A stretch of 34,678 nt of DNA from Clostridiales bacterium (GTDB lineage: Bacteria > Bacillota > Clostridia > Lachnospirales > Lachnospiraceae), in contig JAJQBI010000031.1 of the NCBI GenBank assembly GCA_021203365.1, positions 1 to 34,678 on the forward strand. Reading direction: 5' to 3'. This document shows positions 2,734 to 27,574 of this stretch, one piece after another. The first letter of the stretch is position 1. Each line of letters begins with the position of its first letter. Position numbers and translations under genes: made by a program. The notes under the pieces are model-generated. The model saw nothing but the letters and a program-made list of their open reading frames with translations. It ran no database searches and had not been told where the DNA came from.

Positions 2734-2780
2734 GGTATAACAGCGATAGAATATCTTTTGTCGCTTCAATATGTTATACC
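2734..2780 (+). repeat. Leader hairpin before the zinc-ribbon gene (diverged member of the leader-hairpin family)
   Basis: A perfect 8-bp inverted repeat GGTATAAC (2734-2741) / GTTATACC (2773-2780) encloses an inner AGCGA/TCGCT stem. The inner 3' arm TTTTGTCGCT is the same as in the leaders of hom and the nrdG-like gene, and it lies about 44 nt upstream of the ATG. The 5' arm has diverged. Confidence 0.5.
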
Positions 2781-10228: not shown

Positions 10229-10257
10229 TTGCCTTTTTTACAAAGGTATGTTATGAT
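10229..10257 (+). promoter_or_regulatory. Promoter of the NusG_II-Gx pair
   Basis: -35 TTGCCT (10229-10234) and -10 TATGAT (10252-10257), 17-bp spacer. Transcription would start near 10264, which supports the TTG start at 10292 over upstream ATGs. Confidence 0.6.
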
Positions 10258-10291
10258 TGAAGCGAAAAAAGAGATCAGGGGAGGCATTTAT

Positions 10292-13269: not shown

Positions 13270-13292
13270 GGCGACAAAAGGTATTTGCCGCC
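13270..13292 (-). repeat. Leader hairpin, copy upstream of hom
   Basis: Sense-strand arms GGCGGCAAA and TTTGTCGCC pair over 9 bp including one G-U, around a TACCT loop. It lies 28 nt before the hom start. Just upstream, ATGATAC/GTATCAT (13293-13319) forms a second 7-bp inverted repeat. No T tract follows, so it is not an ordinary terminator. Confidence 0.7.
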
Positions 13293-13345
13293 ATGATACT
13301 CTTTTGTCCCCTGTATCATCTGATCCTGGTATCATCATTCTCATG

Positions 13346-13798
13346 TTATTCTCTGCCCAGTATTTTCAGATAATGGATGCCCCTGCGCTGCTCAATATCT
13401 TCTACCATGGCCTCTGCGTCTCCCTCTCCGGGCAGAATATCCACACTCAGGGTCAGAGTCGCGATTCCATTGATGGGAATGCTCTGGTGGATGGTGAGGA
13501 TATTTCCGTGAAAACGGGCGATTGTCTGCAGGACCATGGACAGAAGTCCCGGTTCATCGTCCATCTGAATGATGAAAGTGATGGTCTTGCCCTTTGCGTC
13601 CTCATGAAAAGGAAAAATATCGTCCTTATATTTATAAAAGGAACTGCGGCTGATGCCGGTCTGTTCGGCCGCCTCCTGTACGGTGGCCGCCTGATTGGAT
13701 TCCAGAAGCTTTTTAGCCTCCACAACCCGGAGGAGAACATCCGGTATGGCCCGTTCCTTTACGACATAGTATTTCTTTTTATTTCCCTGATTCTGCAT
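13346..13798 (-). CDS. pheB: ACT domain-containing protein, PheB family (UPF0735)
   Basis: 150 aa from MQNQGNKKKYYVV; the frame is open further upstream, but the promoter (13848-13876) and an AGTGAGGGG site just before 13798 fix this start, and B. subtilis PheB is similar in size. An N-terminal helix-turn-helix-like segment (EAAEQTGISRSSFYKYKD, about 43-60) precedes a C-terminal ACT domain (about 72-145, ITFIIQMDDEPGLLSMVLQT). PheB is thought to be regulatory in amino acid metabolism, with the ACT domain probably sensing an amino acid; its exact role is not settled. It lies directly before hom on the same strand with a 103-nt gap. Confidence 0.9.
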   Translation of the reverse strand: MQNQGNKKKYYVVKERAIPDVLLRVVEAKKLLESNQAATVQEAAEQTGISRSSFYKYKDDIFPFHEDAKGKTITFIIQMDDEPGLLSMVLQTIARFHGNILTIHQSIPINGIATLTLSVDILPGEGDAEAMVEDIEQRRGIHYLKILGRE

Positions 13799-13847
13799 AA
13801 TCCCCTCACTGTCCGCATTGTAAAGACACCTGTTTTTCTCCGAAAGT

Positions 13848-13876
13848 ATATTATCACATTCATGGAACCGGCGCAA
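13848..13876 (-). promoter_or_regulatory. Promoter of pheB(-hom)
   Basis: Minus-strand -35 TTGCGC (13871-13876) and -10 TAATAT (13848-13853), 17-bp spacer. Confidence 0.6.
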
Positions 13877-13885
13877 GTTAAATTT

Positions 13886-13924
13886 ATCTCAGTCCCCGTA
13901 CATATGTCGTACACGGACTGAGAT
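13886..13924 (-). terminator. Hairpin after prfB
   Basis: Perfect 10-bp stem ATCTCAGTCC (13886-13895) / GGACTGAGAT (13915-13924) with a 19-nt loop, 7 nt after the prfB stop. On the minus strand it is followed by AAATTTAAC, a poor T tract, so it may be a weak terminator or an mRNA-stabilising 3' hairpin. Confidence 0.5.
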
Positions 13925-13931
13925 AATCATT

Positions 13932-15051
13932 TTACTCCGGCTTCTTTGCCAGCGCGATCCATTTCAGATAGGAGTTGATAAATGTGTCAATGCTTCCGTC
14001 CAGCACCGCGTCCACATTTCCGGTCTCCTCGCCGGTGCGGTGGTCTTTCACCATGGTATAGGGCTGCATTACATAGGAACGAATCTGATTGCCCCAGCCA
14101 ATTTCCGTGACCTCTCCGCGGATTCCGGAGAGCTTCGCCTCCGCCTCCTGCTGCTTCAGGAGATAAAGCTTTGCCTTCAGCATCTGCATGGCCTTATCCT
14201 TATTCATATGCTGGGAGCGTTCGTTCTGGCACTGCACCACAATTCCCGTGGGGAAATGGGTAATTCGGATAGCCGAGGAGGTTTTGTTGATGTGCTGCCC
14301 GCCGGCCCCGCTGCTTCGATAGGTATCAATGCGGATGTCTTCATCGTTGATTTCCACATCCAGGTCTTTTTCTATATCCGGCATAACATCACAGGATACA
14401 AAGGAGGTCTGCCGTTTCCCCGCCGCGTTAAAGGGGGAAATCCGAACCAGGCGGTGTACGCCCTTTTCAGATTTCAGATATCCGTAGGCGTTTTCCCCGT
14501 TGACCTGGAAGGTCACGGATTTGATGCCAGCCTCGTCCCCGTCCAGGTAGTCCAGAACCTCCAGACTGTACCCCTTTCGGTCCGCCCAGCGGCTGTACAT
14601 GCGGTACAGCATACCGCACCAGTCACAGGCCTCGGTTCCGCCGGCCCCGGCGTTCAGCTTAAGGATGGCGTTCTCCGTGTCATATTCCCCGGACAGCAGA
14701 GTTTTCGCACGGATACTGTCAAATTCCGCCTGGAACGCATCCAGCATTTCCTGGATTTCCGGGATCAGGTCCGGATCATTTTCCTCATAACCCATCTCAA
14801 TCATGGTTTCCATATCCTCCATCTGGGTGACCAGATTCTGATAGGTCTCCATGTCGTCCTTCAGACTTTTCAGCTCCTTCATTTTCTTCTGGGAGGCTTC
14901 CGTGTCATCCCAGAAGCCCGGCGCTTCCATTTCCCGTTCTAATTCCTCGGCCCTTTTTTCCTTATTGGCGAGGTTAAAGTGAATCCCTCACTTCCACTAA
15001 TGGTTCTGTGAATGTTGCAAGAATGCTCTTGAACTGATCTAACTCAACCAC
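13932..15051 (-). CDS. prfB: Peptide chain release factor 2, programmed +1 frameshift
   Basis: RF2 releases the finished peptide at UGA and UAA codons. The gene is read from GTG (15049-15051; AAGGTG site upstream) for 25 codons to CTT TAA at 14974-14979. A +1 shift there continues in the second frame to the stop at 13932, giving about 372 aa, the normal RF2 length. After the shift the sequence runs NLANKEKRAEELEREMEAPG, as in other RF2 proteins. The tripeptide SPF (RISPFNAAGK) for UGA recognition and the catalytic GGQ (GAGGQHINKT) are intact. A GAGGG sequence 5 nt before CTT can act as the internal SD stimulator. The odd point is UAA in place of the usual UGA. It follows secA on the same strand, as in B. 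subtilis. Confidence 0.93.
14974..14988 (-). promoter_or_regulatory. RF2 autoregulatory +1 frameshift site with UAA
   Basis: Minus strand: AGGG, five bases, CTT TAA C. Zero frame ends at TAA (14974-14976); slippage on CTT (14977-14979) resumes with AAC. In most bacteria the site is CTT TGA C with an SD-like motif 3 nt upstream. Confidence 0.85.
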
Positions 15052-15170
15052 AGCTTCACCTTCTTTCTTATATTTTTACCGGGACAGAACCGGCCTGCCC
15101 GGGTATGCCGCAGATTCTCTGCCGGCCGTATTTAAACATAACATATCTTTTCAGATTCTGCAAATACCTT

Positions 15171-17750
15171 TCAGGCCTTTGCGGCTTTCCGCCCGCAGCA
15201 CTGCTTGTATTTCTTCCCGCTTCCGCAGGGACAGGGATCGTTGGGATAGATTTTGGTTTCCTTTCTCTGGACAGGCTTCTTCGGGCCGGCACTGTCGTCC
15301 TTGTTGGTCCCGGTTACCTTGGCCACCTGTTCCCGCTCTACCTTCTGCTCCACACGCACATGGTACAGCATACGCACCGTATTCTGCTGAATGGATTCCG
15401 TCATGTCGCTGAACATATCGTAGGCGCTCATCTTGTATTCCACCACCGGATCCCGCTGGCCGTAGGCCGTAAGACCGATGCCTTGGCGCAGCATCTCCAT
15501 GTCGTCGATGTGATCCATCCATTTGCTGTCAATGCATTTCAGAAGGACTACCCGCTCCAGTTCACGAAGCTGCTCCGGTTCCTGGAATTCGGCTTCCTTA
15601 GCTTCGTAAAGCTTTACGGCCTCCTCTTTGACCTGATGCTTCAGCTCATCCTTCCTCTTTCCCTTCACCTTCTCGGCGGTGAGAGGCTCCACGGGAATAA
15701 TGGGAATCAGCGCCGTATTAAACTCGTTCAGATCCCACTCGCTGGAATCGGTCTCATCGGAGAAACACATATCCGTGGTGCTGTCCACGATATCCGTGAT
15801 CATTTTGTAAATCGCGTCCCGCATATTCTCTCCGTCCAGAACCTGGCGGCGCTCCTTATAAATAATTTCCCTCTGCTCGTTATTTACCTGGTCATAATCC
15901 AGAAGGTTTTTCCGGATTCCGAAGTTGTTAAACTCGATCTTTTCCTGGGCCTTCTCAATGGCGCCGGAGAGCATTTTGTGCTCGATCTGCTCGTTCTCCG
16001 CTACCCCCAGGGAGGTAAATACCTTCATCAGACGCTCGGATCCGAACAGGCGCATCAGATCATCTTCCAGGGAAATATAAAAACGGGATTCACCCGGATC
16101 GCCCTGCCGTCCGGACCGGCCGCGCAGCTGATTGTCAATCCGCCGGGACTCGTGGCGCTCTGTACCGATGATCTTAAGACCTCCGGCGGCGCGGGCCACA
16201 TCGTCCAGCTTGATATCCGTACCACGTCCGGCCATATTGGTGGCGATGGTGACGGCGCCGGCCTGTCCGGCCTGAGCCACAATCTCCGCCTCCAGCTCGT
16301 GAAACTTGGCGTTCAGAACATTATGCTGGATTCCCTGTCTGCGCAGCATTTTGCTGATAAGTTCCGAGGTCTCAATGGTAATGGTACCCACCAGCACAGG
16401 CTGCTGTTTTTCATGGGCCTCCACTACCGCGTTGACCACGGCGTTAAATTTTTCCTTTTTGGTCATGTATACGGCGTCGTCCAGATCCTTCCGCTGTACA
16501 GGTACGTTGGTGGGAATCTCCACCACGTCCATACTGTAGATGTCCCGGAATTCCTTCTCCTCTGTGAGGGCTGTACCGGTCATGCCGCCTTTTTTGTCAT
16601 ATTTGTTAAAGAAATTCTGGAAGGTTATGGTGGCGAGGGTTTTGCTCTCTCTCTTTACCTTCACATGCTCCTTGGCCTCTATGGCCTGGTGCAGGCCGTC
16701 CGAGTAGCGGCGGCCGGGCATGATCCGTCCCGTAAATTCATCGACGATGAGAATCTCGTCATCCTTTACCACATAATCCTGGTCCTTATGCATCAGATTG
16801 TGCGCGCGCAGCGCCAGGATAATGTTGTGCTGGATCTCCAGGTTCTCCGGATCCGCCAGATTGCCTATGTTAAAGAACTTTTCGACTTTTTTTACACCCT
16901 GTTCGGTCAGATTGACGATCTTATCTTTTTCGTTGACGACAAAGTCTCCGGTCTCAATGACCTCTTCTCCCATAATGGCCGCCATTTTGGTCATCTCATG
17001 GCTGGCCTCGCCCCGTTCCAGCTGCTGGGCCAGGATATCGCAGACCTCATAGAGCTTTGTGGATTTGCCGCTCTGGCCGGAGATGATCAGAGGGGTGCGG
17101 GCTTCGTCGATGAGAACGGAGTCCACCTCGTCGATGATGCAGTAGTGAAGCTCTCTCTGCACGAGCTGTTCCTTATAAATGACCATGTTATCACGGAGAT
17201 AGTCGAAGCCCAGCTCGTTATTGGTCACATAGGTGATGTCACAGGCATAGGCGGCCCGGCGCTCATCCGGCTTCATGTCATTTAAAACCACGCCCACGGT
17301 CAGGCCAAGAAACTCATGTACCTTGCCCATCCACTCAGCGTCACGCTTTGCCAGGTAGTCGTTGACGGTTACAATGTGTACGCCTCTGCCTTCCAGGGCG
17401 TTTAAGTAGGCGGGAAGAGTGGAGACCAGGGTTTTGCCCTCGCCGGTTTTCATCTCGGCGATCCGGCCCTGGTGAAGGACAATGCCGCCGATGAGCTGTA
17501 CCTCATAGTGCTCCATTCCAAGAGTGCGCAATGCAGCTTCCCGAACTGCCGCGTAGGCCTCAGGGAGAAGGGCGTCCAGTGTCTCGCCCTTCTCAAGTCT
17601 GGCACGGAATTCCCGGGTCTTGCCCCGCAGCTCCTCATCGCTGAGCTTCTGCATATCAGGCCGCAGCGCCTCGATCTTCCGAACCAGAGGCATGATACGC
17701 TTCACCTCATGCTGACTGTGTGTTCCAAATATTTTTGTAAAAACACTCAT
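15171..17750 (-). CDS. secA: Preprotein translocase ATPase SecA
   Basis: 859-aa motor that drives proteins through SecYEG. Visible: Walker A TGEGKT (102-107), the [14 protein letters not shown] motif, DEVD helicase motif II ([18 protein letters not shown]), [11 protein letters not shown] and the [18 protein letters not shown] arginine-finger motif. The C-terminal zinc-binding SEC-C tail [14 protein letters not shown] is intact, meaning full-length SecA able to bind SecB-like partners or ribosomes. Length is typical of Firmicutes SecA1. The start at 17748-17750 has TAGGAG about 12 nt upstream. A promoter lies at 17890-17918. prfB follows on the same strand after 119 nt without a terminator. 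Confidence 0.98.
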
Positions 17751-17889
17751 CCGATATATTACTCCTATCCTTTTATGTCAGTTTTTTTACAATCCATGCG
17801 TGAATTCAGATGACGCTGGGTCAAAAGTATCTGGAATCCGTTCATCTGATTCATGATCTTTTGTCTTCTGTATGAATACATACTTTTGT

Positions 17890-17918
17890 ATTTTATCACT
17901 TTCTCTTCCTAAAAACAA
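17890..17918 (-). promoter_or_regulatory. Promoter of secA(-prfB)
   Basis: Minus-strand -35 TTGTTT (17913-17918) and -10 TAAAAT (17890-17895), 17-bp spacer. It gives a leader of about 130 nt before secA. Confidence 0.55.
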
Positions 17919-17949
17919 TGAATAATTATTGAACAAATCATGTACGGGA

Positions 17950-17985
17950 GTAAAAAAAAGAGATCGGAAAAAATCCGGTCTCTTT
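17950..17985 (-). terminator. Intrinsic terminator after hpf
   Basis: Minus strand: AAAGAGACCGG pairs with CCGATCTCTTT (one mismatch), followed by a run of T. It separates the hpf transcript from secA. Confidence 0.8.
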
Positions 17986-18063
17986 CGTATCCAGATTCAC
18001 TGGATGGGGTAAACCAATATGGTTTTTTTACCGGCGGCCGCAGATTTCCGGTTCGATAAAAAA

Positions 18064-18591
18064 TCAGAATTCCGGTTCGATGAGTCCGTAGGTATTCCCC
18101 TTCCGTTTATAAACCACATTGACCTGTTCCGTTTCCGCGTTATAAAATACAAAGAAATTATGTCCAAGCAGCTCCATCTGTACACAGGCATCCTCCGGAT
18201 ACATGGGCTTGATTCCAAACTTCTTCGTGCGGATGATCCGGACCTCCTCATCCTCCTCGTAATCCTTCTCCAGGTAGGCCGGCTGGAAGTTCCCGGGCGC
18301 CTGATGCTTGTCCACGATCTTATTCTTGTATTTCCGAAGCTGACGTTCAATCACTTCCTCTACAAGATCGATGGATACATACATATCACTGCTCACCTGC
18401 TCAGAACGGATGATGCTGCCCTTTACCGGAATCGTCACTTCAATTTTCTGCCGTTCCTTCTCAATGCTTAAGGTCACTACAACTTCGGTATCAGGAGTGA
18501 AATACCTTTCCAGTTTGCCAAGCTTGTCTTCCACGGCGCTGCGGAGTCCCTCTGTGATTGCGATATTTTTTCCGCTGATAATAAATTTCAT
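18064..18591 (-). CDS. hpf: Ribosome hibernation promoting factor, long form
   Basis: 175-aa long-type HPF (YvyD/RaiA family). The N-terminal domain (1-100) binds the 30S decoding region and blocks mRNA and tRNA. The C-terminal domain (about 117-175, RIIRTKKFGIKPMYPEDACVQMELLGHNFFVF) dimerises to join two 70S ribosomes into inactive 100S particles. The start MKFIISGKNIAITEGLR and the end GNTYGLIEPEF are family hallmarks. A strong ribosome site (GGGGG region) and a promoter at 18629-18658 precede it; an intrinsic terminator follows. Position upstream of secA-prfB matches many Firmicutes. Confidence 0.97.
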   Translation of the reverse strand: MKFIISGKNIAITEGLRSAVEDKLGKLERYFTPDTEVVVTLSIEKERQKIEVTIPVKGSIIRSEQVSSDMYVSIDLVEEVIERQLRKYKNKIVDKHQAPGNFQPAYLEKDYEEDEEVRIIRTKKFGIKPMYPEDACVQMELLGHNFFVFYNAETEQVNVVYKRKGNTYGLIEPEF

Positions 18592-18628
18592 ATTTTCATC
18601 CCCCTTGCTTTTTTATTCATCCATTTTC

Positions 18629-18658
18629 ATTATAGCACAGAGACCTGAATTTAAACAA
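18629..18658 (-). promoter_or_regulatory. Promoter of hpf
   Basis: Minus-strand -35 TTGTTT (18653-18658) and -10 TATAAT (18629-18634), 18-bp spacer. It starts 18 nt past the nucleoside hydrolase stop. Confidence 0.7.
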
Positions 18659-18676
18659 CCGTTTATGAAAAATTAC

Positions 18677-19621
18677 TTATTGAAATGCCGCGAGAAACAT
18701 ATTCACGGCTCTTGGGGAATCTACTTCCACACAGTGTTCCACGAACCGGCCTTCGATGGGGTGTTCTCTCTGGTCTGTGACCAGCATTCCTCTGCAGTAG
18801 GTTCCCTGGCACTCCACACGGGTGATCATTTTCCGGGTTGTGACAAGGCCGGGATTGAAGACGGTGAGCATGGCCAGCGGATCGTGGAGGGGACAGCATT
18901 CAAGAAAATAATTGGCGTTCCGGTATGCGTTCATATAAAAACGAAGTTCTTCTTTTATAAAGTCCAGGAGAGGTGCACACTCTTTTCGGCAGCACCGGCG
19001 CGCTTTGTCCAGGTCGGATATTTTCAGCAGGGTTTTCAGGGTCACGTCCAGGCCTACCAGAGATACGTTCCAGCCGGCACACAGCACCTGGTCCGCGGCT
19101 TCGGGGTCTCCGGCAATATTGGCCTCCGCCACGGGGGTAACATTTCCGGGAGTGTAAAGGGTCCCGCCCATGGAAACCACCCGGGAGATTTTCCGGGAAA
19201 AATCAGGATAGCGCTGAAGGGTCAGGGCGATATCGGTCATCCGCCCCAGGGTGATCAGTACCAGCTCTCCGGGACAGGCGCAGGCCTTCTCATAGAGAAA
19301 ATCACGAAAGTCCATGTCTACCGGGCGCTGATCGGTTTCGGGAAGCTGAACATTGCCGATGCCGTTTGCTCCGTGAATGTTGGGAGCGGTCTCCTTCGGA
19401 ATTCCATTTACAGGCAGTTCTGCACCCACACAGACCGGAATGGCACCTTCCTTCCCCGCAAGCTTCAGAACCCGCAGAGTGTTCTCTGCTCCCTGGGCGG
19501 CGGATACATTGCCGGCAGACACGCAAATTCCCGCAATCTCCGCATCCGGCCGCTGCAGGGCGTATAAGAGGGCAAGAGAATCGTCGATTCCAAGGTCACA
19601 GTCAATCAGTAATCGCAGCAT
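18677..19621 (-). CDS. Inosine/uridine-preferring type nucleoside hydrolase
   Basis: 314-aa hydrolase that cleaves the N-glycosidic bond of ribonucleosides to free base and ribose for salvage. The N-terminal Ca2+/ribose site appears as DCDLGIDD (residues 8-15; most relatives have DTDPGxDD). Other family features are SAGNVSAAQGAENTLRVL, the ITLGRMTDIALTLQRYPD block, SMGGTLYTPGNVTPVAEANIAGDPEAA (about 153-180) and the C-terminal CPLHDPLAML with the last metal-binding Asp. GAGGAGG precedes the ATG. Base preference cannot be predicted. It has its own promoter and a leader with two GC-rich hairpins. Confidence 0.92.
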   Translation of the reverse strand: MLRLLIDCDLGIDDSLALLYALQRPDAEIAGICVSAGNVSAAQGAENTLRVLKLAGKEGAIPVCVGAELPVNGIPKETAPNIHGANGIGNVQLPETDQRPVDMDFRDFLYEKACACPGELVLITLGRMTDIALTLQRYPDFSRKISRVVSMGGTLYTPGNVTPVAEANIAGDPEAADQVLCAGWNVSLVGLDVTLKTLLKISDLDKARRCCRKECAPLLDFIKEELRFYMNAYRNANYFLECCPLHDPLAMLTVFNPGLVTTRKMITRVECQGTYCRGMLVTDQREHPIEGRFVEHCVEVDSPRAVNMFLAAFQ

Positions 19622-19661
19622 AAAATCACTCCTCCTCGTAAGGTTTTGTTATGAAACACAC

Positions 19662-19696
19662 TGCCTGCCTCGGCAGGCACCCGCCGGAAAGGGCGG
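19662..19696 (-). other. Two GC-rich hairpins in the nucleoside hydrolase leader
   Basis: TGCCTGCC/GGCAGGCA (19662-19679; 7-8 bp, tiny loop) and CCGCC/GGCGG (19681-19696; 5 bp, 6-nt loop) lie between the promoter and the ribosome site. No T tract follows and I do not recognise a known riboswitch. The rest of the interval 19755-19932 shows only the DUF6128 gene's ribosome site. Confidence 0.55.
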
Positions 19697-19725
19697 ACTC
19701 TGCAGCGGTTTCTTTTTTAATATGA

Positions 19726-19754
19726 AGTATAACAGAATCCGCGGTGAAAAACAA
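19726..19754 (-). promoter_or_regulatory. Promoter of the nucleoside hydrolase gene
   Basis: Minus-strand -35 TTGTTT (19749-19754) and -10 TATACT (19726-19731), 17-bp spacer; leader about 100 nt. Confidence 0.6.
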
Positions 19755-19932
19755 TCAGGACTGTGTTCCTGAGAGGGGAAATGCCCGGATCGGATACGGG
19801 CCCGGGAATTCACGGGATCTGTTCCGGAAAATCCGAATGAAATTCTGATTGGTTCATATAAATGGTACAGGGGGATTTCTCCGGGAAAACCTGTATGTTT
19901 ATGGAAAGAATAAATAATTGGAGGAATGAAAT

Positions 19933-21003
19933 TTGGCGGAATATCGGCGGTTTGTGGCGTATGTATATGAATATCGGAAAGGGATGAAGGGAGACAACTG
20001 CGGATTTGTGAAGGTGGAGGTAAGGGAACGCAGGTGTATGGCGGAGGTTCATCTGCACTGTGAAGGGCTTTCCTCGGGCAGCGAATGTGAGGTGTATGGT
20101 TTTATCCGAACGGAAGGACTGCTGGACGGCATTTTGCTTGGAAGGTGTCAGACGGAGCGGGATCAGATTATCTGTGCGCTGGAAACAGACGCGGAAGGAG
20201 TAGGAGGAACCGGGATTTCACTGGAAAAACTGGGCGGGATGATTATTCGGACCAGGTCCGGGGGCTTTTTTGGAACAGAGTGGGATGATATGCCCATTCG
20301 TCCGGGAAATTTCCGGGAATACCGGGAAGCCCGGATCTTACAGTCGGAAGCCGCCCCGGATAAGGGACAGGAAGTGAAAATGGCCGAGATTACACAGGCG
20401 GATACCGAGGAGCCGTGCGTGAAGGAGGAAAGCCCGGCGGTGTCGGCGGACGGCGCAGAGAAAGAATGCGGCCGGACAGACCGGAGGAATCCCGGGAGAG
20501 AGGATGACTGGCCAAAGCCGGATGATTTCAGGAGGAAGGCGGGTCAGCCGGAATCGGATGATCCCGGGAAGGAGGGCGACCAGGTCGGCCTGGAACCGGA
20601 AAGAGAGGAAATGGAAGCAGGAAGAGAGAGAATTTCATTTCCGGCGATTTCCGGTCGGGGAAAAATCGGCTTTGGCGAGGAATTTGCACCCTTCGGAGAC
20701 GGGGAATTTATGGAGTGCCGGAAAATCCGCCCGACGGATATCACACATTTTTCCAGGAGTGAATGGGGGTACCGGAACAACCGTTTTCTGCTGTACGGCT
20801 TTTACAGCTTCGGGCACATTCTCCTTGGCAGAAGAAATGACGGCCGGTACATACTGGGGATTCCCGGGGCGTATGATCCGCAGGAGCGATTTATGGCGAA
20901 TATGTCCGGCTTTCCATATTTTAAGGACAGCGCGTACATCGGATTTAAAAACAGACGGGGCGGCTACTGGTACTGCTTTGTCAGTCCGCTGTCCGATGTG
21001 TGA
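19933..21003 (+). CDS. DUF6128-like protein of unknown function
   Basis: 356 aa from a TTG start with GGAGG 8 nt upstream. Three parts are visible. Residues 1-130 form a folded beta-rich domain (FVAYVYEYRKGMKGDNCGFVKVEVR ends in RPGNFREYREARI at about 125-137). Residues 140-235 are a charged, Glu/Lys/Pro-rich linker of low complexity. Residues 236-356 are a conserved C-terminal domain (MECRKIRPTDITHFSRSEWG, NNRFLLYGFYSFGHILLGRR, ILGIPGAYDPQERFMANMSG) that I recognise as DUF6128, seen mainly in Lachnospiraceae. No membrane segment or signal peptide. The Trp/Tyr-rich C-terminus is aromatic and probably binds a ligand or partner, but no function is known. Confidence 0.78.
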   Translation: MAEYRRFVAYVYEYRKGMKGDNCGFVKVEVRERRCMAEVHLHCEGLSSGSECEVYGFIRTEGLLDGILLGRCQTERDQIICALETDAEGVGGTGISLEKLGGMIIRTRSGGFFGTEWDDMPIRPGNFREYREARILQSEAAPDKGQEVKMAEITQADTEEPCVKEESPAVSADGAEKECGRTDRRNPGREDDWPKPDDFRRKAGQPESDDPGKEGDQVGLEPEREEMEAGRERISFPAISGRGKIGFGEEFAPFGDGEFMECRKIRPTDITHFSRSEWGYRNNRFLLYGFYSFGHILLGRRNDGRYILGIPGAYDPQERFMANMSGFPYFKDSAYIGFKNRRGGYWYCFVSPLSDV

Positions 21004-21007
21004 CTGA

Positions 21008-21043
21008 AAAAATGGCAGAAAGCTGTCCGGCAGTTTTTTTGAA
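21008..21043 (+). terminator. Possible weak terminator after the DUF6128 gene
   Basis: A short imperfect stem (AAGCTG with CAGTT) is followed by seven T. The stem is weak; the T run is clear. Confidence 0.4.
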
Positions 21044-21055
21044 TCTCTTCCCCGT

Positions 21056-21757
21056 TCAGTCCAGGTCAATTCCCCGGATTTCCACAGCGGGTATGGTTCG
21101 AAGCAGAATCTGCCGGTAACGCTTCAGGGTTTCCGGAGAACAGCAGGAGAAACCGGGGACAAGGACCTCCTCTGAATCTCTGTAGGCCTGGAGAAAATAG
21201 GCCTTTGCCCCGGCCAGCCACCGGCCGATCTTCTTAAAATCTTTTTCCCCGTGAAGCTCCTTCACGACGGTGGTGCGAAACTCATAATCCAGAGTTCCGT
21301 TGAGAAGAAAATCCGCGGTTTCAAGGACAGGGGACAGATCCGGGGAAGGGAGGCCTGTGGCGGGGCCATAGTTTTCCGGGCAGGCCTTGATGTCCATGGC
21401 AACCTTCTGAATCAGGCCATTTTGGAAAAGCTCTTTTATTACGGAAGGCCTGGAACCGTTTGTATCCAGCTTTACCTCGTAGCCCAGCCGGCGGATATCC
21501 AGAAGAAAATCCGGAAGCTCCGGCGACAGGGTCGGCTCTCCGCCGGAGATACATACCCCGTCCAGGATTCCCCTTCGTTTTTTTAAAAATGAAAGAATCT
21601 CTTCTCTGGAATATTCCGGCTGTCGTTCCACCTTTGTGACCAGAGGACTGTTCTGACAAAACGGGCAGCGGTAGTTGCATCCCCCGAGAAAAACAGTCGC
21701 GGCCACCTTTCCCGGGTAATCCAGAAGCGTTGTTTTGTTAAAACCACATATTTTCAT
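21056..21757 (-). CDS. nrdG: Anaerobic ribonucleotide reductase activating protein-like radical SAM enzyme
   Basis: 233-aa radical SAM protein. The iron-sulfur motif C-x3-C-x2-C is at C27, C31, C34 (GGCNYRCPFC), within an N-terminus MKICGFNKTTLLDYPGKVAATVFLGG typical of the NrdG2-type clade. ISGGEPTLSPEL is the SAM-binding GGE motif. Such enzymes make a glycyl radical on a partner, classically the class III ribonucleotide reductase NrdD. No nrdD is next to it, so the partner is unproven and pyruvate-formate-lyase-activase-like roles remain possible. No good SD is seen beyond AGAGGGAAAT directly before the ATG. A TATAAT (21830-21835, minus) and a leader hairpin lie upstream. Confidence 0.85.
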   Translation of the reverse strand: MKICGFNKTTLLDYPGKVAATVFLGGCNYRCPFCQNSPLVTKVERQPEYSREEILSFLKKRRGILDGVCISGGEPTLSPELPDFLLDIRRLGYEVKLDTNGSRPSVIKELFQNGLIQKVAMDIKACPENYGPATGLPSPDLSPVLETADFLLNGTLDYEFRTTVVKELHGEKDFKKIGRWLAGAKAYFLQAYRDSEEVLVPGFSCCSPETLKRYRQILLRTIPAVEIRGIDLD

Positions 21758-21795
21758 ATTTCCCTCTTTTCCGGCAGTGTGTCCGTTGTTTCCAT

Positions 21796-21820
21796 AGCGA
21801 CAAACGGTATTTTGCCGCCT
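21796..21820 (-). repeat. Leader hairpin, copy upstream of the nrdG-like gene
   Basis: Sense-strand arms GCGGCAAA and TTTGTCGC pair over 8 bp with one G-U around an ATACCG loop. It starts 10 nt after a TATAAT box (minus strand) and ends 40 nt before the nrdG-like start. Confidence 0.7.
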
Positions 21821-21952
21821 TATGAGTTATTATACTCTCTCATCAGAAAAAATGGTAGGCAGAAAAAGTATGGGCGGAAAAGTTCCGCAAACACTCCTTG
21901 CCCCGGAAGCGGCTTTGTGGTAAGCTGTGTCTGAAAAAGGAAGGTGCGCAGG

Positions 21953-22444
21953 ATGACGGAACAGGAACGTTTTATGAAGGAAGCAATTCGGCAGGCAAAA
22001 AAAGCCAGGGCACTGGAGGAGGTTCCCATTGGCTGTGTGATTGTCTCGGAGGGGAAGATCATTGCCAGGGGTTATAACCGCCGGAATACAGACAAGAACA
22101 CACTGTCTCATGCGGAGCTGAACGCCATCCGCAGAGCTTCCCGGAAGCTGGGAGACTGGCGGCTGGAAGGGTGTACCATGTACGTGACTCTGGAGCCCTG
22201 TCAGATGTGTGCCGGGGCGCTGGTACAGTCCAGAATTGATGAGGTCGTCATCGGAAGCATGAACCCCAAGGCCGGGTGTGCCGGCTCTGTGCTGAACCTG
22301 CTGGAGATGGACGGGTTTAATCATAAAGTTCGGGTTGTGCGGGGAGTGCTGGAAAAGGAGTGCAGCGAGATGCTTTCCGCTTTTTTCCGTGAGCTGAGAG
22401 AGAAGAAGAAAAGAGAAAAAGATGAATCTGATGAAAAACAATAA
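21953..22444 (+). CDS. tadA: tRNA-specific adenosine deaminase
   Basis: 163-aa enzyme that converts A34 to inosine in tRNA-Arg(ACG). Zinc ligands and catalytic Glu are in place: H53-A-E55 and P82-C83-x2-C86 (EPCQMCAGAL). Further family motifs are VPIGCVIV, GDWRLEGCTMYVTLEP and GSMNPKAGCAGSVLNLL. The ATG at 21953 was preferred over an in-frame GTG at 21944 because AAGGAAGG lies 8 nt upstream of it. The C-terminus is Lys/Glu-rich. A bidirectional terminator follows directly, shared with the SRP RNA gene. In many Firmicutes tadA is next to the SRP RNA and dnaX-ybaB-recR, as here. Confidence 0.96.
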   Translation: MTEQERFMKEAIRQAKKARALEEVPIGCVIVSEGKIIARGYNRRNTDKNTLSHAELNAIRRASRKLGDWRLEGCTMYVTLEPCQMCAGALVQSRIDEVVIGSMNPKAGCAGSVLNLLEMDGFNHKVRVVRGVLEKECSEMLSAFFRELREKKKREKDESDEKQ

Positions 22445-22472
22445 AGCAGCCCTTAAAAGGCTGCTTTTCTTT
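22443..22472. terminator. Bidirectional terminator between tadA and the SRP RNA
   Basis: AAAGCAGCC (22443-22451) pairs with GGCTGCTTT (22459-22467), T-rich on both strands. Confidence 0.85.
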
Positions 22473-22481
22473 TACTTTTTT

Positions 22482-22741
22482 GCGCGCCGCACTTCGACAT
22501 GCTCCCACAGACGTTACCTCTACAGTTAACTCGGCCCAGGCACCCTCACGTCACACAGAAGGTTCCGCTTAGTGCTGCTGCATTCCTGCCCTGACACGGT
22601 TCACGGATTCCTGTTGCGTAAGACCCGAACGTCAACGCCACTTATAAAGGGCAGCTCCACAGGACACATGCCTCAGATTGGCATCACCCCTGCTGTAGCG
22701 GATTGCAGGTACAGGGCACCGCTATCTCCCCGGCTGCGCGA
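22482..22741 (-). ncRNA. ffs: Signal recognition particle RNA, large Gram-positive type
   Basis: About 260 nt. Minus-strand sequence contains the Alu-domain block GGTGCCCTGTACCTGCAATC followed by a CGCTACAGCAGGGG loop, the helix 5 strand GGGTGCCTGGGCCGAGTTAA, and the helix 8 apical region GTCAGGGCAGGAATGCAGCA with a GGAA tetraloop at 22583-22586 (closed by A-U, not C-G) and the AGCAGC asymmetric loop. The 5' CGCGC and 3' GCGCG ends pair. With Ffh it targets nascent membrane and secreted proteins. Ends are estimated from the promoter and terminal pairing. Confidence 0.95.
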
Positions 22742-22746
22742 AATTC

Positions 22747-22775
22747 AGTATAGCCTTTTTAAGCGGATTTGTCAA
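22747..22775 (-). promoter_or_regulatory. Promoter of the SRP RNA gene
   Basis: Minus-strand consensus -35 TTGACA (22770-22775) and -10 TATACT (22747-22752), 17-bp spacer. Start predicted near 22741. The rest of the interval up to 23041 has two small inverted repeats (CCGGAA/TTCCGG near 22934 and CAGTC/GACTG near 22948) but no gene I can support. Confidence 0.85.
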
Positions 22776-23041
22776 CGATTTTGTTCATCTTCGCAAAAAA
22801 CAGGGGAGTGATCCGGCTGGAAAAATCAAAATCGCCTTACATACAGTCAAAATCCTGTCTTTTACTGCAGCCCTGAAGACGGTATGATATAGACGTTGAC
22901 AGGTTAAAAAAGCTTAAAGCAAACGATTGTCCGGAAAATATTCCGGCAGTCGCCGGCGGACTGCACCGGGATTTCTCTGTATTATATATGTGAGGATTTT
23001 ACAGTGCAATTTACCGGGACATGAGAACAGGAGGAATAAAT

Positions 23042-23230
23042 ATGACAACGACAACTGCAAATTTATATAAAAATACACCTGTGGAAAACGAGAAAAAGGA
23101 AAGTTCCTTTTGGGGAAGATGCAAAGGGTATTTCCGGGAAAGCCAGGCTTCAATCGTCTGCGGAATGCTGACCATGAACGGGAGCACAAATGTTTCCGGG
23201 CTGTACAGGTCTCTTACGGAGACAGAATAA
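23042..23230 (+). CDS. Small protein of unknown function (62 aa)
   Basis: 62 aa with a perfect AGGAGG about 8 nt before the ATG and a strong terminator 53 nt after the stop, so it looks like a real monocistronic gene. The sequence is hydrophilic, Thr/Ser-rich at the N-terminus (MTTTTANLYKNTPVENEKK), with a basic aromatic middle (FWGRCKGYFRE) and one stretch ASIVCGMLTMNG that is mildly hydrophobic. Two Cys. No signal peptide or membrane helix. I do not recognise the family. Candidate -10 sequences (TATTAT near 22979) exist but no clear -35. Confidence 0.6.
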   Translation: MTTTTANLYKNTPVENEKKESSFWGRCKGYFRESQASIVCGMLTMNGSTNVSGLYRSLTETE

Positions 23231-23282
23231 ACCTGCATCCGTTTTGGCAGGCACTCAGACTTTATATGCGTTTTCAGATTTC

Positions 23283-23331
23283 ACCGACCCGGGGAATGCT
23301 CTTTTTGGAGCACTTCCCCGGGTCGGTTTTT
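23283..23331 (+). terminator. Strong intrinsic terminator
   Basis: 14-bp perfect outer stem ACCGACCCGGGGAA (23283-23296) / TTCCCCGGGTCGGT (23314-23327), inner GCTC/GAGC, then TTTTT. It closes the small-ORF unit. Confidence 0.93.
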
Positions 23332-23372
23332 GTAATAAGTATCCTGAATCGGAAAGATTCATGAAGATTTTA

Positions 23373-23401
23373 TTGTGAAAAACGCAGAAATGATTTATAA
23401 T
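23373..23401 (+). promoter_or_regulatory. Promoter of pfk
   Basis: -35 TTGTGA (23373-23378) and -10 TATAAT (23396-23401), 17-bp spacer; it predicts a leader of about 255 nt. Confidence 0.65.
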
Positions 23402-23535
23402 GAAACCTATGAGCGGGAACCGTTGTGAAAGAACCATTCAGACTGTGCAGGATGCGCAGGCTGTTCCACGACGGGCTCTGAGTCACTGCTGCGGGTTTCA
23501 GGTATGTGTGTATAGCTGTGCGGGCGGAGACAAAA

Positions 23536-23610
23536 CAGGGCGGCAAAATATTTATTGCCGCATCAATCATAAGATGTGCGGAATCATATGGGAGCACGGA
23601 AACCGCCCTG
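23536..23610 (+). repeat. Leader hairpin, copy in the pfk leader, with alternative pairing
   Basis: GCGGCAA (23540-23546) pairs with TTGCCGC (23555-23561), the leader-hairpin family. The overlapping CAGGGCGG (23536-23543) is also perfectly complementary to CCGCCCTG (23603-23610) further down, so two exclusive folds are possible. The remaining leader (23402-23662) holds no convincing gene. Confidence 0.55.
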
Positions 23611-23662
23611 ATTCGGGGGACCGGCCTGGGGCAGTATGAGAGAGCACGGAACGGAGGGTACT

Positions 23663-24745
23663 ATGATTAAAAGGATTGGCATGTTGACAAGTGGCGGAGA
23701 CTGCCAGGCGCTGAACGCGACTATGCGGGGCGTGGTAAAGGGACTGAGCAACAGCATTGACGAGCTGGAGATTTATGGTTTTGACGATGGATACAAGGGA
23801 TTGATCTATGGCAAATACCGGATGCTCACCTCGAAGGATTTTTCCGGTATTCTGACCCAGGGCGGCACTATTCTGGGAACGTCCAGACAGCCGTTCAAGC
23901 TGATGCGCGTACCGGATGAAAAGGGAGTGGACAAGGTGGCGGCCATGAAGCAGACATACTATAAGCTTTGTCTGGACTGCCTTGTGATCCTGGGAGGCAA
24001 CGGAACCCAGAAGACGGCCAACCTTCTTCGCGAGGAGGGGCTGAATATTATTCATCTTCCCAAGACCATTGACAACGATATCTGGGGGACGGATATGACC
24101 TTTGGTTTCCAGAGCGCCGTGAATATTGCCACCGACGCCATTGACTGCATTCACACCACTGCCGCTTCCCACGGCCGTGTATTTATCGTGGAGGTTATGG
24201 GCCATAAGGTTGGAAGTCTTACGCTGCACGCCGGTCTGGCCGGCGGCGCGGACATCATCCTGATTCCTGAAATTCCATATGATGTTAAAAAGGTGATCGC
24301 AGCCATCAATAAGCGGGCCAGGGCGGGCAAGCGCTTTACGATTCTCGCGGTTGCGGAGGGCGCGATTTCCAAGGAGGACGCCAAGCTTTCCAAGAAGAAA
24401 TATAAGGAAAAGCTGGCGGAGCGCGCGAAGAAATATCCCTCTGTTTCATATGAGATCGCGGACCGGATCCAGAAGGAGACCGGAAGCGAGGTTCGCATCA
24501 CAGTTCCAGGCCATACCCAGCGAGGCGGGGAGCCCTGTCCCTATGACCGTGTTCTTTCCACAAGGATCGGTGCGGGCGCAGCGCAGGCCATTATCGACGA
24601 AGAGTATGGCATCATGATCGGTATTGTGAACAATAAGATCAAGCGCGTGCCCCTGGCGGAGTGCGCGGGCAAGCTGAAGATGGTTTCCGAGAAGGATCAG
24701 ACCGTCCAGGCAGCCAAACAGATTGGAATCAGCTTTGGAGATTGA
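23663..24745 (+). CDS. pfkA: 6-phosphofructokinase
   Basis: 360-aa enzyme phosphorylating fructose 6-phosphate, the committed step of glycolysis. Start chosen at MIKRIGMLTSGGD because GGAGG lies 5 nt upstream. Visible: nucleotide loop TSGGDCQALNA (8-18), LGGNGTQKTA (phosphoryl-donor site), the catalytic PKTIDNDIWGTD, and VEVMGHKVGSLTLHAGLAGGAD. The donor-site position equivalent to E. coli Gly104 is Gly and that of Gly124 is Lys (PKTIDND), a combination reported for a group of ATP-dependent long PFKs, while PPi enzymes have Asp/Lys. The Asp normally before Gly104 is Asn here. ATP dependence is therefore likely but not certain. dnaX begins 66 nt downstream. Confidence 0.93.
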   Translation: MIKRIGMLTSGGDCQALNATMRGVVKGLSNSIDELEIYGFDDGYKGLIYGKYRMLTSKDFSGILTQGGTILGTSRQPFKLMRVPDEKGVDKVAAMKQTYYKLCLDCLVILGGNGTQKTANLLREEGLNIIHLPKTIDNDIWGTDMTFGFQSAVNIATDAIDCIHTTAASHGRVFIVEVMGHKVGSLTLHAGLAGGADIILIPEIPYDVKKVIAAINKRARAGKRFTILAVAEGAISKEDAKLSKKKYKEKLAERAKKYPSVSYEIADRIQKETGSEVRITVPGHTQRGGEPCPYDRVLSTRIGAGAAQAIIDEEYGIMIGIVNNKIKRVPLAECAGKLKMVSEKDQTVQAAKQIGISFGD

Positions 24746-24811
24746 CGGCGTCCGGGACACGGTCTGTGAGCCCGGCTGCGTTATGCCCGACAGGATGAAA
24801 AGAGGTGTTCC

Positions 24812-26425
24812 ATGAGCTATACAGCCCTTTATCGGAAGTTTCGGCCGGATAATTTTGCGGATGTAAAAGGCCAGGATCATATCGTGACGACTCTGACCAA
24901 TCAGATTCGGGCAAACCGCATCGGGCACGCCTACCTGTTCTGCGGAACCCGGGGCACAGGCAAGACCACAGTGGCCAAAATACTGGCCAGGGCGGTGAAC
25001 TGCCAGCATCCGGTAAACGGAAGTCCATGCAATGAATGTGAGATGTGCCGGGCCATTTTGTCCGGCACATCTATGAATGTGATTGAGATTGACGCTGCCT
25101 CCAACAATGGCGTGGACAATATCCGCGAGATCCGGGAGGAGGTTGCCTATCGCCCAACAGAGGGCAATTATAAGGTATATATCATTGACGAGGTTCACAT
25201 GCTTTCCACCGGAGCCTTCAACGCTCTTCTGAAAACCCTGGAGGAACCTCCCTCCTATGTGATCTTTATTCTGGCGACCACGGAGGCTCATAAGATCCCT
25301 GTCACCATCCTTTCCAGATGCCAGAGATATGATTTCCATCGTATTTCTCTGGATACCATTGCGGCGCGTCTGTCGGAGCTGCTGAAGGTGGAAGGTGTGG
25401 AGGCGGAGGAAAAGGCCGTCCGCTATGTGGCCCGGGCGGGGGACGGTTCCATGCGCGATGCTCTGAGTCTTCTGGATCAGTGCATCGCTTTTTACCTTGG
25501 GCAGACACTGACCTATGACCGTGTGCTGGATGTGCTGGGGGCCGTGGATACAGAGGTTTTCAGCCGCCTTCTGCGGAAAATTCTGGCCGGGGATGTGACC
25601 GGCTCCATCCGGATCCTGGAGGAGCTGATCATGGGAGGCCGGGAGCTGGGGCAGTTTGTGGGGGATTTTACCTGGTATATGCGGAATCTTCTTCTGGTAA
25701 AAACCTCGGAGAATCCGGAGGACGCCGTTGATGTCTCCTCCGAGAATCTCCGGCTTCTCCGGGAGGAGAGCGAGATGACGGATATTGACACGCTGATGCG
25801 GTATATCCGTGTTTTTTCCGAGCTTTCCGGCCAGATCCGCTATGCGGCCCAGAAAAGAGTGCTGGTGGAGATTGCGCTGATTAAGCTGTGCCGTCCGGCG
25901 ATGGAGACAAATCTGGATTCCCTTCTGGATCGTGTGCGGGTTCTGGAAAAGCAGATGGAGGAGCGTCCGGCGGGGCCGGCAGTTATGGCGGAAATAACCG
26001 GAAGGAGACAGGGCTCTGGGGAAGCGGGCCTGGAAGATTCGTCCGGGGAGCCTGCACCCGCGAAGGCCGCGCCGGAGGACCTGAAAAAGATTGTGGCCGG
26101 ATGGCGCGGAATTGTAAACCGGATATCCGGCGGCGCATTCCGGATCGCCCTGCAGCAGGCCGTTCCAAAATACAACGGGGATACGGGAGAGCCGGTGCTT
26201 TATGTGGAATTTCAGAATTTCCGCGGCAAAAATTATGTGGATGATCCGGAGGCAAAAGCGGAGCTTGCGGACATTATCCGGGAGCAGACCGGAAAGACTG
26301 TGGAAATTCATATGCTTGTGGCAGGGGAACACCCACATGGGAATCTGTCCCGGATTACCGTGGATCAGGCGATCCGGGAGAACATTCATATGGATGTGGT
26401 AATTGAAGAGGGGCCGGAGGAGTAA
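24812..26425 (+). CDS. dnaX: DNA polymerase III subunits gamma/tau
   Basis: 537-aa clamp-loader ATPase. Walker A GTRGTGKTT (45-53), zinc module with Cys 64, 73, 76 and 79, Walker B IIDEVH (124-129), sensor/SRC motif (SRCQRYDF, 168-175) and the DAL SLLDQ block are all present. The C-terminal third (about 380-537) is a less conserved tau-like region ending in an acidic tail. It loads the sliding clamp and links polymerase to helicase. No strong A-AAA-AAG slippery site is seen, so only the full form may be made. It is followed closely by ybaB and recR, the classic Firmicutes operon. Confidence 0.97.
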   Translation: MSYTALYRKFRPDNFADVKGQDHIVTTLTNQIRANRIGHAYLFCGTRGTGKTTVAKILARAVNCQHPVNGSPCNECEMCRAILSGTSMNVIEIDAASNNGVDNIREIREEVAYRPTEGNYKVYIIDEVHMLSTGAFNALLKTLEEPPSYVIFILATTEAHKIPVTILSRCQRYDFHRISLDTIAARLSELLKVEGVEAEEKAVRYVARAGDGSMRDALSLLDQCIAFYLGQTLTYDRVLDVLGAVDTEVFSRLLRKILAGDVTGSIRILEELIMGGRELGQFVGDFTWYMRNLLLVKTSENPEDAVDVSSENLRLLREESEMTDIDTLMRYIRVFSELSGQIRYAAQKRVLVEIALIKLCRPAMETNLDSLLDRVRVLEKQMEERPAGPAVMAEITGRRQGSGEAGLEDSSGEPAPAKAAPEDLKKIVAGWRGIVNRISGGAFRIALQQAVPKYNGDTGEPVLYVEFQNFRGKNYVDDPEAKAELADIIREQTGKTVEIHMLVAGEHPHGNLSRITVDQAIRENIHMDVVIEEGPEE

Positions 26426-26439
26426 GAAAGGAAGATGTT

Positions 26440-26790
26440 ATGGCAAAGCGTGGAGGATATGCGGGCGGTATGCCCGGAAATATGAGCAATCTGATGAAAC
26501 AGGCGCAGAAAATGCAGCGCCAGATGGAAGTGAGTCAGAAGGAACTGGAGGAAAAGGAATTTACCGCCGCGTCCGGAGGCGGAGCGGTGGAAGTTACCAT
26601 TACCGGCAAGCGCGAGATAAAGAAGGTAACCCTGGCCCCGGAGGCGGTGGACCCGGAGGATATTGAAATGCTGGAGGATATGATTGCTGCGGCGGTCAAT
26701 GAGGCAATCCGTATGGTTGACGAGGAGAATATGGCAGCCATGTCCAAATTTACCGGCGGGATGAACATGGGCGGAGGCTTTCCGTTCTGA
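26440..26790 (+). CDS. ybaB: YbaB/EbfC family nucleoid-associated protein
   Basis: 116-aa DNA-binding protein. The N-terminus is Gly/Met-rich (MAKRGGYAGGMPGNMSN), then LMKQAQKMQRQMEVSQKELEEKEF (18-41) forms the usual helix and SGGGAVEVTITGKREIKKV the beta part, ending in a Met/Gly tail. The family forms dimers that coat or bend DNA. It begins 14 nt after dnaX; the stop TGA overlaps the recR ATG by one base, so the three genes are co-transcribed and coupled. Confidence 0.95.
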   Translation: MAKRGGYAGGMPGNMSNLMKQAQKMQRQMEVSQKELEEKEFTAASGGGAVEVTITGKREIKKVTLAPEAVDPEDIEMLEDMIAAAVNEAIRMVDEENMAAMSKFTGGMNMGGGFPF

Positions 26791-27389
26791 TGGAGTATTA
26801 CAGCAGTCATATCAATAAACTGATTGAGCAGCTTTCCCATCTCCCGGGAATCGGGGCAAAATCCGCCCAGCGGCTGGCGTTTCACATTATCAATATGCCG
26901 GCGGATCAGGTGGAGCAGCTGACTTCATCGATTACGGCGGCGAGAAAGAATGTGCGGTACTGTAAATGCTGCTGTACACTGACGGATCAGGAAATCTGTC
27001 CGATCTGTGCCAGTGAAAAGCGGGATCATTCCACGATTATGGTGGTGGAGAATCCAAGGGACCTGGCCGCTTATGAAAAAACCGGGAAATTTGAGGGCGT
27101 CTATCATGTTCTTCACGGAGCGATTTCCCCCATGCTTGGCATCGGGCCGGATGATATCCGCCTGAAGGAGCTGATGACACGGCTTTCCGGGGAAGATGTA
27201 AAGGAGCTGATCATAGCCACAAATTCAAGCCTGGAAGGTGAGACCACCGCCATGTACATCAGCCGGCTGGTGAAGCCCATCGGGATCAGAGTAAGCCGGA
27301 TTGCCAGTGGTGTGCCTGTGGGCGGCGACCTGGAGTATATTGATGAGGTGACTCTTCTGCGTGCGCTGGAGGGAAGAGTGGATCTGTAA
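26790..27389 (+). CDS. recR: Recombination protein RecR
   Basis: 199-aa RecFOR-pathway protein that helps load RecA at gaps. Helix-hairpin-helix LPGIGAKSAQRLAFHI (18-33), a four-Cys zinc finger (CKCC...CPIC, about 55-72), and a Toprim domain starting STIMVVENPRDLAAYEKTG are complete. The C-terminal Walker-like RIASGVPVGGDLEYIDEVTL is standard. Its ATG overlaps the ybaB stop (A of TGATG). No clear terminator follows before the fsa promoter at 27438. Confidence 0.97.
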   Translation: MEYYSSHINKLIEQLSHLPGIGAKSAQRLAFHIINMPADQVEQLTSSITAARKNVRYCKCCCTLTDQEICPICASEKRDHSTIMVVENPRDLAAYEKTGKFEGVYHVLHGAISPMLGIGPDDIRLKELMTRLSGEDVKELIIATNSSLEGETTAMYISRLVKPIGIRVSRIASGVPVGGDLEYIDEVTLLRALEGRVDL

Positions 27390-27437
27390 AAATTTGTCTG
27401 GGATTTTTCCGGATTCTGACCTGATTGGAGGGCCAAC

Positions 27438-27466
27438 TTGACCCTGGGTTCAGAATCCGCTATAAT
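27438..27466 (+). promoter_or_regulatory. Promoter of fsa-transketolase operon
   Basis: -35 TTGACC (27438-27443) and -10 TATAAT (27461-27466), 17-bp spacer. Start near 27473, followed at once by a GCACC/GGTGC hairpin (27477-27490). Confidence 0.8.
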
Positions 27467-27520
27467 TAGAGACAGAGCACCTGACGGTGCAAAAAAAGCG
27501 GCAGATGCAACAAAGTCATA

Positions 27521-27543
27521 GGCGGCAAAATACCTTTTGCTGC
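27521..27543 (+). repeat. Leader hairpin, copy upstream of fsa
   Basis: Arms GCGGCAAAA and TTTTGCTGC pair over 9 bp with one G-U around the TACC loop (27531-27534). It lies 31 nt before the fsa ATG and about 50 nt after the predicted transcription start. Confidence 0.72.
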
Positions 27544-27574
27544 TTCCATCATTTCATTATTCAGGAGGAAAAAA

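Follow-up and report, generated by a model that had tools for sequence, protein, structure and literature searches.

Introduction

Clostridiales-1 is an orphan family of Rfam (RF01699), which has been known since 2010 and is entered there as an sRNA to which no function has been assigned. In a table of Weinberg 2010 (PMC2864571), it is described as probably an RNA, neither cis-regulatory nor a switch, and mobility of Clostridiales-1 or RF01699 is absent from the titles and abstract openings of papers naming either. Several small repeats and insertion sequences (IS) of other bacteria provide a frame for comparison. BOX elements are modular and transcribed and, together with RUP and SPRITE, over-represented between convergent genes (PMC3049150), most mapped positions of Correia elements are directly upstream of genes (PMC10969869), and IS1272 reportedly takes the place of stem-loops without a target-site duplication (TSD) (PMC5678879).

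In this study, we are discussing a window of 34,678 nucleotides (the whole stretch of DNA analysed), which is contig C16 of a genome of 3.13 Mb in 84 contigs, and in which a sequence-only reading had pointed to hairpins shared by the leaders of several genes. These hairpins are very probably what remains of the right end of a MITE, a non-autonomous DNA transposon, the full-length form of which is Clostridiales-1 (RF01699). What is new is the resemblance of an orphan Rfam RNA to a MITE, and to one that has an unusual preference for promoters.

Hairpin copies in the window

The four intergenic hairpins described by the sequence-only reading were all found, with coordinates and strands as claimed, and a fifth copy was added. 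The copies and the features belonging to them are as follows:

2742..2764, plus strand: fifth copy, overlooked by the earlier reading; pattern match with 3 mismatches; z -6.7
13270..13319, minus strand: hom copy, with left end ATGATACAGGGGACAAAAGA, its GTATCAT partner and the claimed hairpin at 13270-13292
21056-21757, minus strand: nrdG-like radical-SAM gene, downstream of the hairpin at 21796..21820
21796..21820, minus strand: nrdG-like copy, a hairpin remnant matching the genome pattern; z -3.1
23538..23561, plus strand: pfk copy, a hairpin remnant matching the genome pattern; z -4.7; pfk start at 23663
27438-27466: promoter-like site TTGACC-17-TATAAT, upstream of the fsa hairpin
27521..27552, plus strand: fsa copy, a hairpin with a degenerate right end; fsa start at 27575

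From the end of the hairpin to the start codon, the distance is 27 nt (hom), 38 nt (nrdG-like gene), 31 nt (fsa) and 101 nt (pfk), and the downstream genes carry the Pfam domains Homoserine_dh, Radical_SAM (nrdG-like gene), PFK and TAL_FSA. The fifth copy lies 44 nt before an ORF of 64 aa (2809-3003), for which no match was obtained in the Pfam scan. The z values were calculated against dinucleotide shuffles and amount to -3.3 for hom, besides those listed for the nrdG-like and pfk copies; the fsa stretch folds weakly (z -1.9), with the hairpin contained in the centroid and a different minimum-energy fold.

Among the five window copies, only that of hom has a recognisable left end, a match to the terminal inverted repeat (TIR) with two mismatches at C16:13300-13319. 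This copy is a 54-nt mini-element devoid of internal modules, folds into two hairpins (ATGATAC/GTATCAT, then GGCGGCAAA/TTTGTCGCC) and is flanked by an imperfect duplication with 5 of 7 positions matching. At fsa, a right-end TIR match is located at 27533-27552. Overall, the window copies retain end hairpins only and represent, with their GGCGGC, diverged minority variants of the genome-wide form. The 14-base 5' arm alone is unremarkable in the window, with 8 matches at up to three mismatches, a number that was reached by 7 of 100 shuffles. Intrinsic terminators were ruled out from the sequence, given that there is no T tract.

The Rfam scan of the window gave no match to RF01699 and returned only an ordinary FMN riboswitch (RF00050; 2372-2528, minus strand) and the bacterial large SRP RNA (RF01854; 22480-22741, minus strand), the latter with a promoter-like site upstream. 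A lone TIR-like ATGATTGAAGCGAAAAAAGA with two mismatches (10253-10272, plus strand) may be an isolated end remnant or a chance match.

Copies in the genome and in relatives

Genome-wide, the full hairpin pattern RGCGRCAAAATACCTTTTGYCGC (at most three mismatches) was matched 31 + 36 times on the two strands, and 0 + 0 times by the reversed control. Seven of these 67 matches were second-strand readings of the same palindrome and were dropped, leaving 60; the hom copy carries a deletion and was added by eye to give a total of 61 copies. The majority form is GTATCAT-AGCGACAAAA-TACC-TTTTGTCGCT-TCAATCAT, and the hairpin flanks GTATCAT and TTCAATCAT are part of the element. A sister hairpin type (GGGGTC), TATCAYAGGGGTCAAATACTTTTGACCCC, occupies 33 places in the same genome (control 0). 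Among 40 relatives, the hairpin pattern was matched eight times in five genomes, each time with two or three mismatches and never with fewer. A looser pattern was in clear excess in genomes G013 and G046 only; since it is one base out of register for the main type of the present genome, its 1 + 1 matches there are uninformative. The left end had 0 matches in viral contigs and no match in plasmids.

Element structure

The hairpin belongs to a larger unit, which starts with GATACAAGGGACAAAAGG and ends with CCTTTTGTCGCTTCAATC, these being inverted repeats of each other. A combined pattern of the two TIRs, GATacAAGgGACAAAAGG and GATtgAAGcGACAAAAGG, was matched 55 + 54 times, compared to 0 + 1 for the control. 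The element is usually 194 bp in length, with variants of 36, 54, 77-78, 95-102, 216 and 236 bp, and the hairpin itself consists of the right TIR and an adjoining inverted copy of it. The inner modules P2-P4 are missing in many copies, resulting in elements of 36-102 nt and in bare hairpins. In the extreme case of the 36-nt copy at C18:5997, two TIRs stand back to back with a perfect ATCACAT duplication on both sides.

Typically, the elements are flanked by direct repeats of 7-8 bp, mostly ATNNNAT. The TSD tally comprises 48 elements of five genomes, 36 of them belonging to this one, and applies the same border rule to rows and permutations; C52:22474, which shares its left end with C52:22522, is left out. 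The TSDs are perfect in 28 of the 48 elements (permuted mean 0.45, maximum 4) and match at 6/7 or better in 40 of the 48 (permuted mean 5.7, maximum 13). Of the features by which a MITE is recognised, TIRs, TSDs, a length of 36-236 nt, a high copy number in the absence of a transposase and related IS ends occur here.

With its alternative of a REP-like mobile hairpin, the earlier reading came closer in proposing a mobile repeat and went astray in the type, the element being a MITE with TIRs and TSDs. Palindromes of the REP/RAYT type, which are moved by a Y1 transposase, are likewise short hairpins with numerous intergenic copies. However, Y1 transposases are not known to make TIRs and 7-8 bp TSDs, both of which are present, and the matching IS ends are of the DDE type; the probability of a REP/RAYT origin is, therefore, regarded as very low.

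Match to Clostridiales-1

All four full-length copies submitted to Rfam (L187, L196, L156, L241) match RF01699 over 166 of 166 positions, with E-values of 1.3e-28, 7e-26, 2e-24 and 6.5e-23. Of 16 further loci, ten match as well (L293, L242, L287, L299, L303, L088, L046, L252, L164, L074) and six short variants gave no match (L249, L026, L053, L014, L052, L176); scores range from 61 to 132 bits at a gathering threshold of 48. Matches are also found in four other genomes (G013, G117, G002, G209), L241 and L252 being from G209. The model begins at the left TIR and ends at the ATCA immediately before the hairpin noted in the window; as it spans the element from the left inverted repeat to the hairpin edge, the orphan RNA family appears to be a transposon. 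The remark of the earlier reading that it knew no named motif of this kind holds in part, in that the hairpin falls beyond this model, and fails for the parent element, which is Rfam RF01699. Most aligned elements of this genus carry this extra 3' hairpin beyond the model; in the two aligned G209 elements, its 5' arm is missing, so that the palindrome may be a later addition in the genus.

An optional insert with a sequence close to ACACCCGCAGGGCGCTCTGTGAGG is found within the P4 arm in L046, L047, L074, L157 and L166. It recurs in the two subfamilies of this genome alike, as if they exchanged modules. At L074, a cobalamin riboswitch (297-484, plus strand) and one MITE copy are separated by about 800 nt.

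It might be argued that Clostridiales-1 is a genuine gene for an sRNA acting in trans, which has been multiplied by transposition, the RNA being the functional product. The strong conserved fold and the covariation are in line with this, as is the table of Weinberg 2010 (PMC2864571) that lists the family as a probable RNA outside the cis-regulatory class. Against it, the ends of the model coincide with transposon ends, and many TSD-flanked copies are situated upstream of unrelated genes, which makes an sRNA gene unlikely.

Candidate mobilising insertion sequence

IS-type ends (ATGATTTRRGCGACAAAAGG) are present at nine contig ends of this genome (one with a mismatch), a location that is expected when a repeated IS breaks the assembly. 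They were found in 4 of 200 genomes of the family, this one included. A further IS-end match at C65:130918, between transport genes, was discarded as it looks like chance.

A nearly complete IS, of which the outer left TIR is cut by the contig start, is contained in JAJPYH010000080.1 (L256; MAG Lachnospiraceae bacterium AH.6_10), and its two subterminal stretches match these contig ends of this genome. Its transposase of 533 aa has NCBIfam NF033551 (IS1182) as the best match (E 3.8e-36; 125 bits vs. a cut-off of 270), scores above the cut-off for Pfam DDE_Tnp_1_6 and DUF772, and shares 60% identity over 406 aa with the transposase of an IS copy in G117. No right end was found in the G117 copy; G117 also has a MITE (L242) whose left end is similar. 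In L256 (1-1862), the IS is oriented like the MITEs, with its ATGATTTGAGCGACAAAAGG end towards the start of the co-directional ORF that follows.

By computation, the element ends are shown to resemble those of a putative IS1182-like DDE insertion sequence. A gene like the L239 transposase had 0 matches in this assembly; thus, the mobilising IS is known here by its ends alone, and its transposase is the presumed enzyme that moves the element.

Placement relative to genes

The earlier reading had placed the hairpins upstream of genes in sense orientation. This was borne out genome-wide: 34 of the 61 copies are tandem-sense and 4 tandem-antisense in co-directional gaps, 19 lie in divergent and 2 in convergent gaps, 1 is inside a gene and 1 at a contig edge. 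The sister subfamily, with 30 distinct places (3 of the 33 GGGGTC places are without a locus, and 2 of 32 rows repeat another place), behaves similarly, with 18 tandem-sense, 2 antisense, 5 divergent, 2 convergent, 1 inside and 2 edge copies. In G013 and G046, two other species of the genus, 31 rows comprise 14 sense, 4 antisense, 6 divergent, 1 convergent and 6 edge copies (9 of the 39 matches have no separate locus, of which one was read inside L289). Where a left end was recognised (27 copies), 16 are sense, 3 antisense, 7 divergent and 1 convergent.

In 16 of 19 divergent gaps, the copy lies closer to the gene that it precedes in sense (p 0.004); in tandem gaps, the copy is nearer to the start codon than to the upstream stop in just 20 of 34. 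As to the clustering ahead of start codons, which the earlier reading had proposed to look for throughout the genome, 22 of the 53 copies in sense or divergent position have no more than 60 nt between their end and the start codon, and the fullest 10-nt bin is 30-40 nt, with 11 copies; gene calls are from a simple hexamer script, and start codons may be off. The sense bias of 34/38 is not clearly above a background of 80% co-orientation (p 0.10). An effect of the replication strand alone on orientation is compatible with the 34:4 ratio taken by itself; it would leave the divergent-over-convergent excess unexplained.

Pfam scans covered at least 12 of the 22 genes that start within 60 nt of a copy; ten of these are amino-acid kinase, gyrase A, SHMT, isopropylmalate dehydrogenase, Mur ligase, SpoIVA, tetrapyrrole methylase, isopropylmalate synthase, AraA and glutamine synthetase. 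The view that the downstream genes are metabolic is, thus, incomplete, as gyrase A, SpoIVA and Mur-ligase types are among them. Gyrase A is among the essential genes, and the presence of such genes downstream suggests that insertion is tolerated.

Fold and pairing changes

The 200-nt transcript has a predicted folding energy of -85.8 kcal/mol (z -10.5). In the predicted fold, GTATCAT pairs with ATGATAC and thereby encloses three hairpins, which are followed by the end hairpin. Two-sided changes that keep pairing occur at 18 of 46 predicted pairs in an alignment of 25 elements (A2, which omits 8 of 33 long elements). For the end hairpin, 60 stems yield 500 Watson-Crick, 21 G-U, 8 A-C and 11 other cells. 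The earlier argument that tolerance of G-U indicates RNA function is, therefore, weak, as the 21 G-U cells face 8 A-C and 11 others, and as the copies are related. The pairing is accounted for equally well by RNA function and by a common origin of the copies, transcription-linked mutation and recognition of the TIRs. Furthermore, two TIRs which are recognised by one transposase can co-vary without RNA function, so that the covariation of Clostridiales-1 needs rereading.

Leaders of hom and fsa in relatives

Genomes with a match, this one included, numbered 61 for hom and 52 for fsa, and only those with a locus were read. The hairpin is absent before hom in 29 of 29 relatives read, where hom follows an ACT-domain gene by 4-120 nt, and before fsa in all 27 relatives with a start found (2 of 29 were dropped, no start being found). 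Most fsa relatives have TTGACC or a similar -35 box, TATAAT and then a short leader, and the fsa of the window has an additional segment between the -10 box and the ribosome-binding site. The comparison shows that presence of the hairpin at hom and fsa is lineage-specific, which does not support the earlier reading as far as a conserved leader element is concerned.

These leaders bear directly on the idea of a cis-regulatory RNA, riboswitch-like or protein-binding, that coordinates metabolic genes from their mRNA leaders. Such an RNA would account for the sense placement upstream of genes and for diverged copies largely keeping their pairing, with G-U cells outnumbering A-C cells. It is at odds with the hom and fsa ortholog leaders read, with the TSDs and with a mixed set of downstream genes, in which gyrase A type, SHMT, isopropylmalate dehydrogenase, Mur ligase, SpoIVA and AraA stand side by side; we consider it very unlikely.

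Promoter nearness and a model of leader formation

In 17 of 47 elements, the left end is preceded by a -10-like hexamer (5 of 6 positions) at a distance of 2-13 nt, compared to 6.8 in shuffled flanks, 0 of 1000 of which reached 17. For this genome alone, the excess is modest (10/36 vs. 4.9 shuffled, fraction 0.02), and for the other genomes 7 of 11 elements were counted vs. 2.1 shuffled. A -10 hexamer together with a -35 box precedes 10 of 46 elements (shuffled mean 1.1, maximum 5). Beyond the right end, a mirror-image -10 occurs in 10 of 46 elements vs. 17 of 46 in sense (Fisher p 0.17), and together with a -35 box in 4 of 46, vs. 10 in sense; hence, promoter nearness is supported, and promoter-directed orientation is not proven by these counts. 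Being too near to a contig edge, one of the 48 elements was left out of the -10 count and two of the mirror test. TATCAT before the hairpin was rejected as a general -10 box because it is without a -35 box and sometimes reads TATCAC, and a count of 18 of 33 "-10" boxes for copies without a left end is an artefact, given that TATCAT itself scores 5/6.

Nearness to -10-like boxes, together with the palindromic nature of the site, would also be anticipated for a DNA operator bound by a global transcription factor. However, the arm letters co-vary between the GCGAC and GGGGTC subfamilies of one genome, the sites are element-length units with TSDs, the TACC loop is largely conserved, unlike a typical spacer, and the site is missing at hom or fsa in the relatives read. 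An operator is, accordingly, highly improbable.

For the MITE, the most likely course is that the element inserts at promoters and turns into a self-folding mRNA leader. The IS transposase would move the element and would pick AT-rich ATNNNAT sequences as targets, either at a -10 box or immediately downstream of it; once inserted, the element would have its left end towards the promoter, transcription would begin near the first bases of the element, and the element would become the self-folding 5' leader of the mRNA. Such a leader may be tolerated because the element folds on itself and the ribosome-binding site stays free. That Clostridiales-1 is a promoter-seeking MITE, inserted by its transposase in sense at open promoters such that transcription begins at its left end, with a fold selected as an insulating, harmless and perhaps stabilising leader under which the host gene stays on and the transposon survives, is a tentative proposal, which we rate as possible and somewhat short of an even chance.

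Comparison with known systems

With these results, an RNA family that has been without a function since 2010 gains an identity, in that it appears to be a mobile element. It offers a testable case of transposons becoming mRNA leaders in gut Firmicutes and, at the same time, a caution against naming such hairpins regulatory leaders.

To Clostridiales-1 RF01699, the likeness is that full-length elements match the entire model above the gathering score; the difference is that Rfam speaks of an sRNA gene, whereas the ends seen here coincide with TIRs flanked by TSDs. With the IS1182 family (IS1272), the system shares a putatively IS1182-like transposase in the matching IS, and the TIRs resemble those of the MITE; in contrast to what is reported for IS1272, the elements described here have 7-8 bp TSDs, mostly ATNNNAT. 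The pneumococcal BOX and RUP and the neisserial Correia elements are alike in being small non-coding repeats. Unlike BOX, RUP and SPRITE, however, the elements of this genome have just 2 of 59 placed copies between convergent genes, and their orientation is strongly sense.
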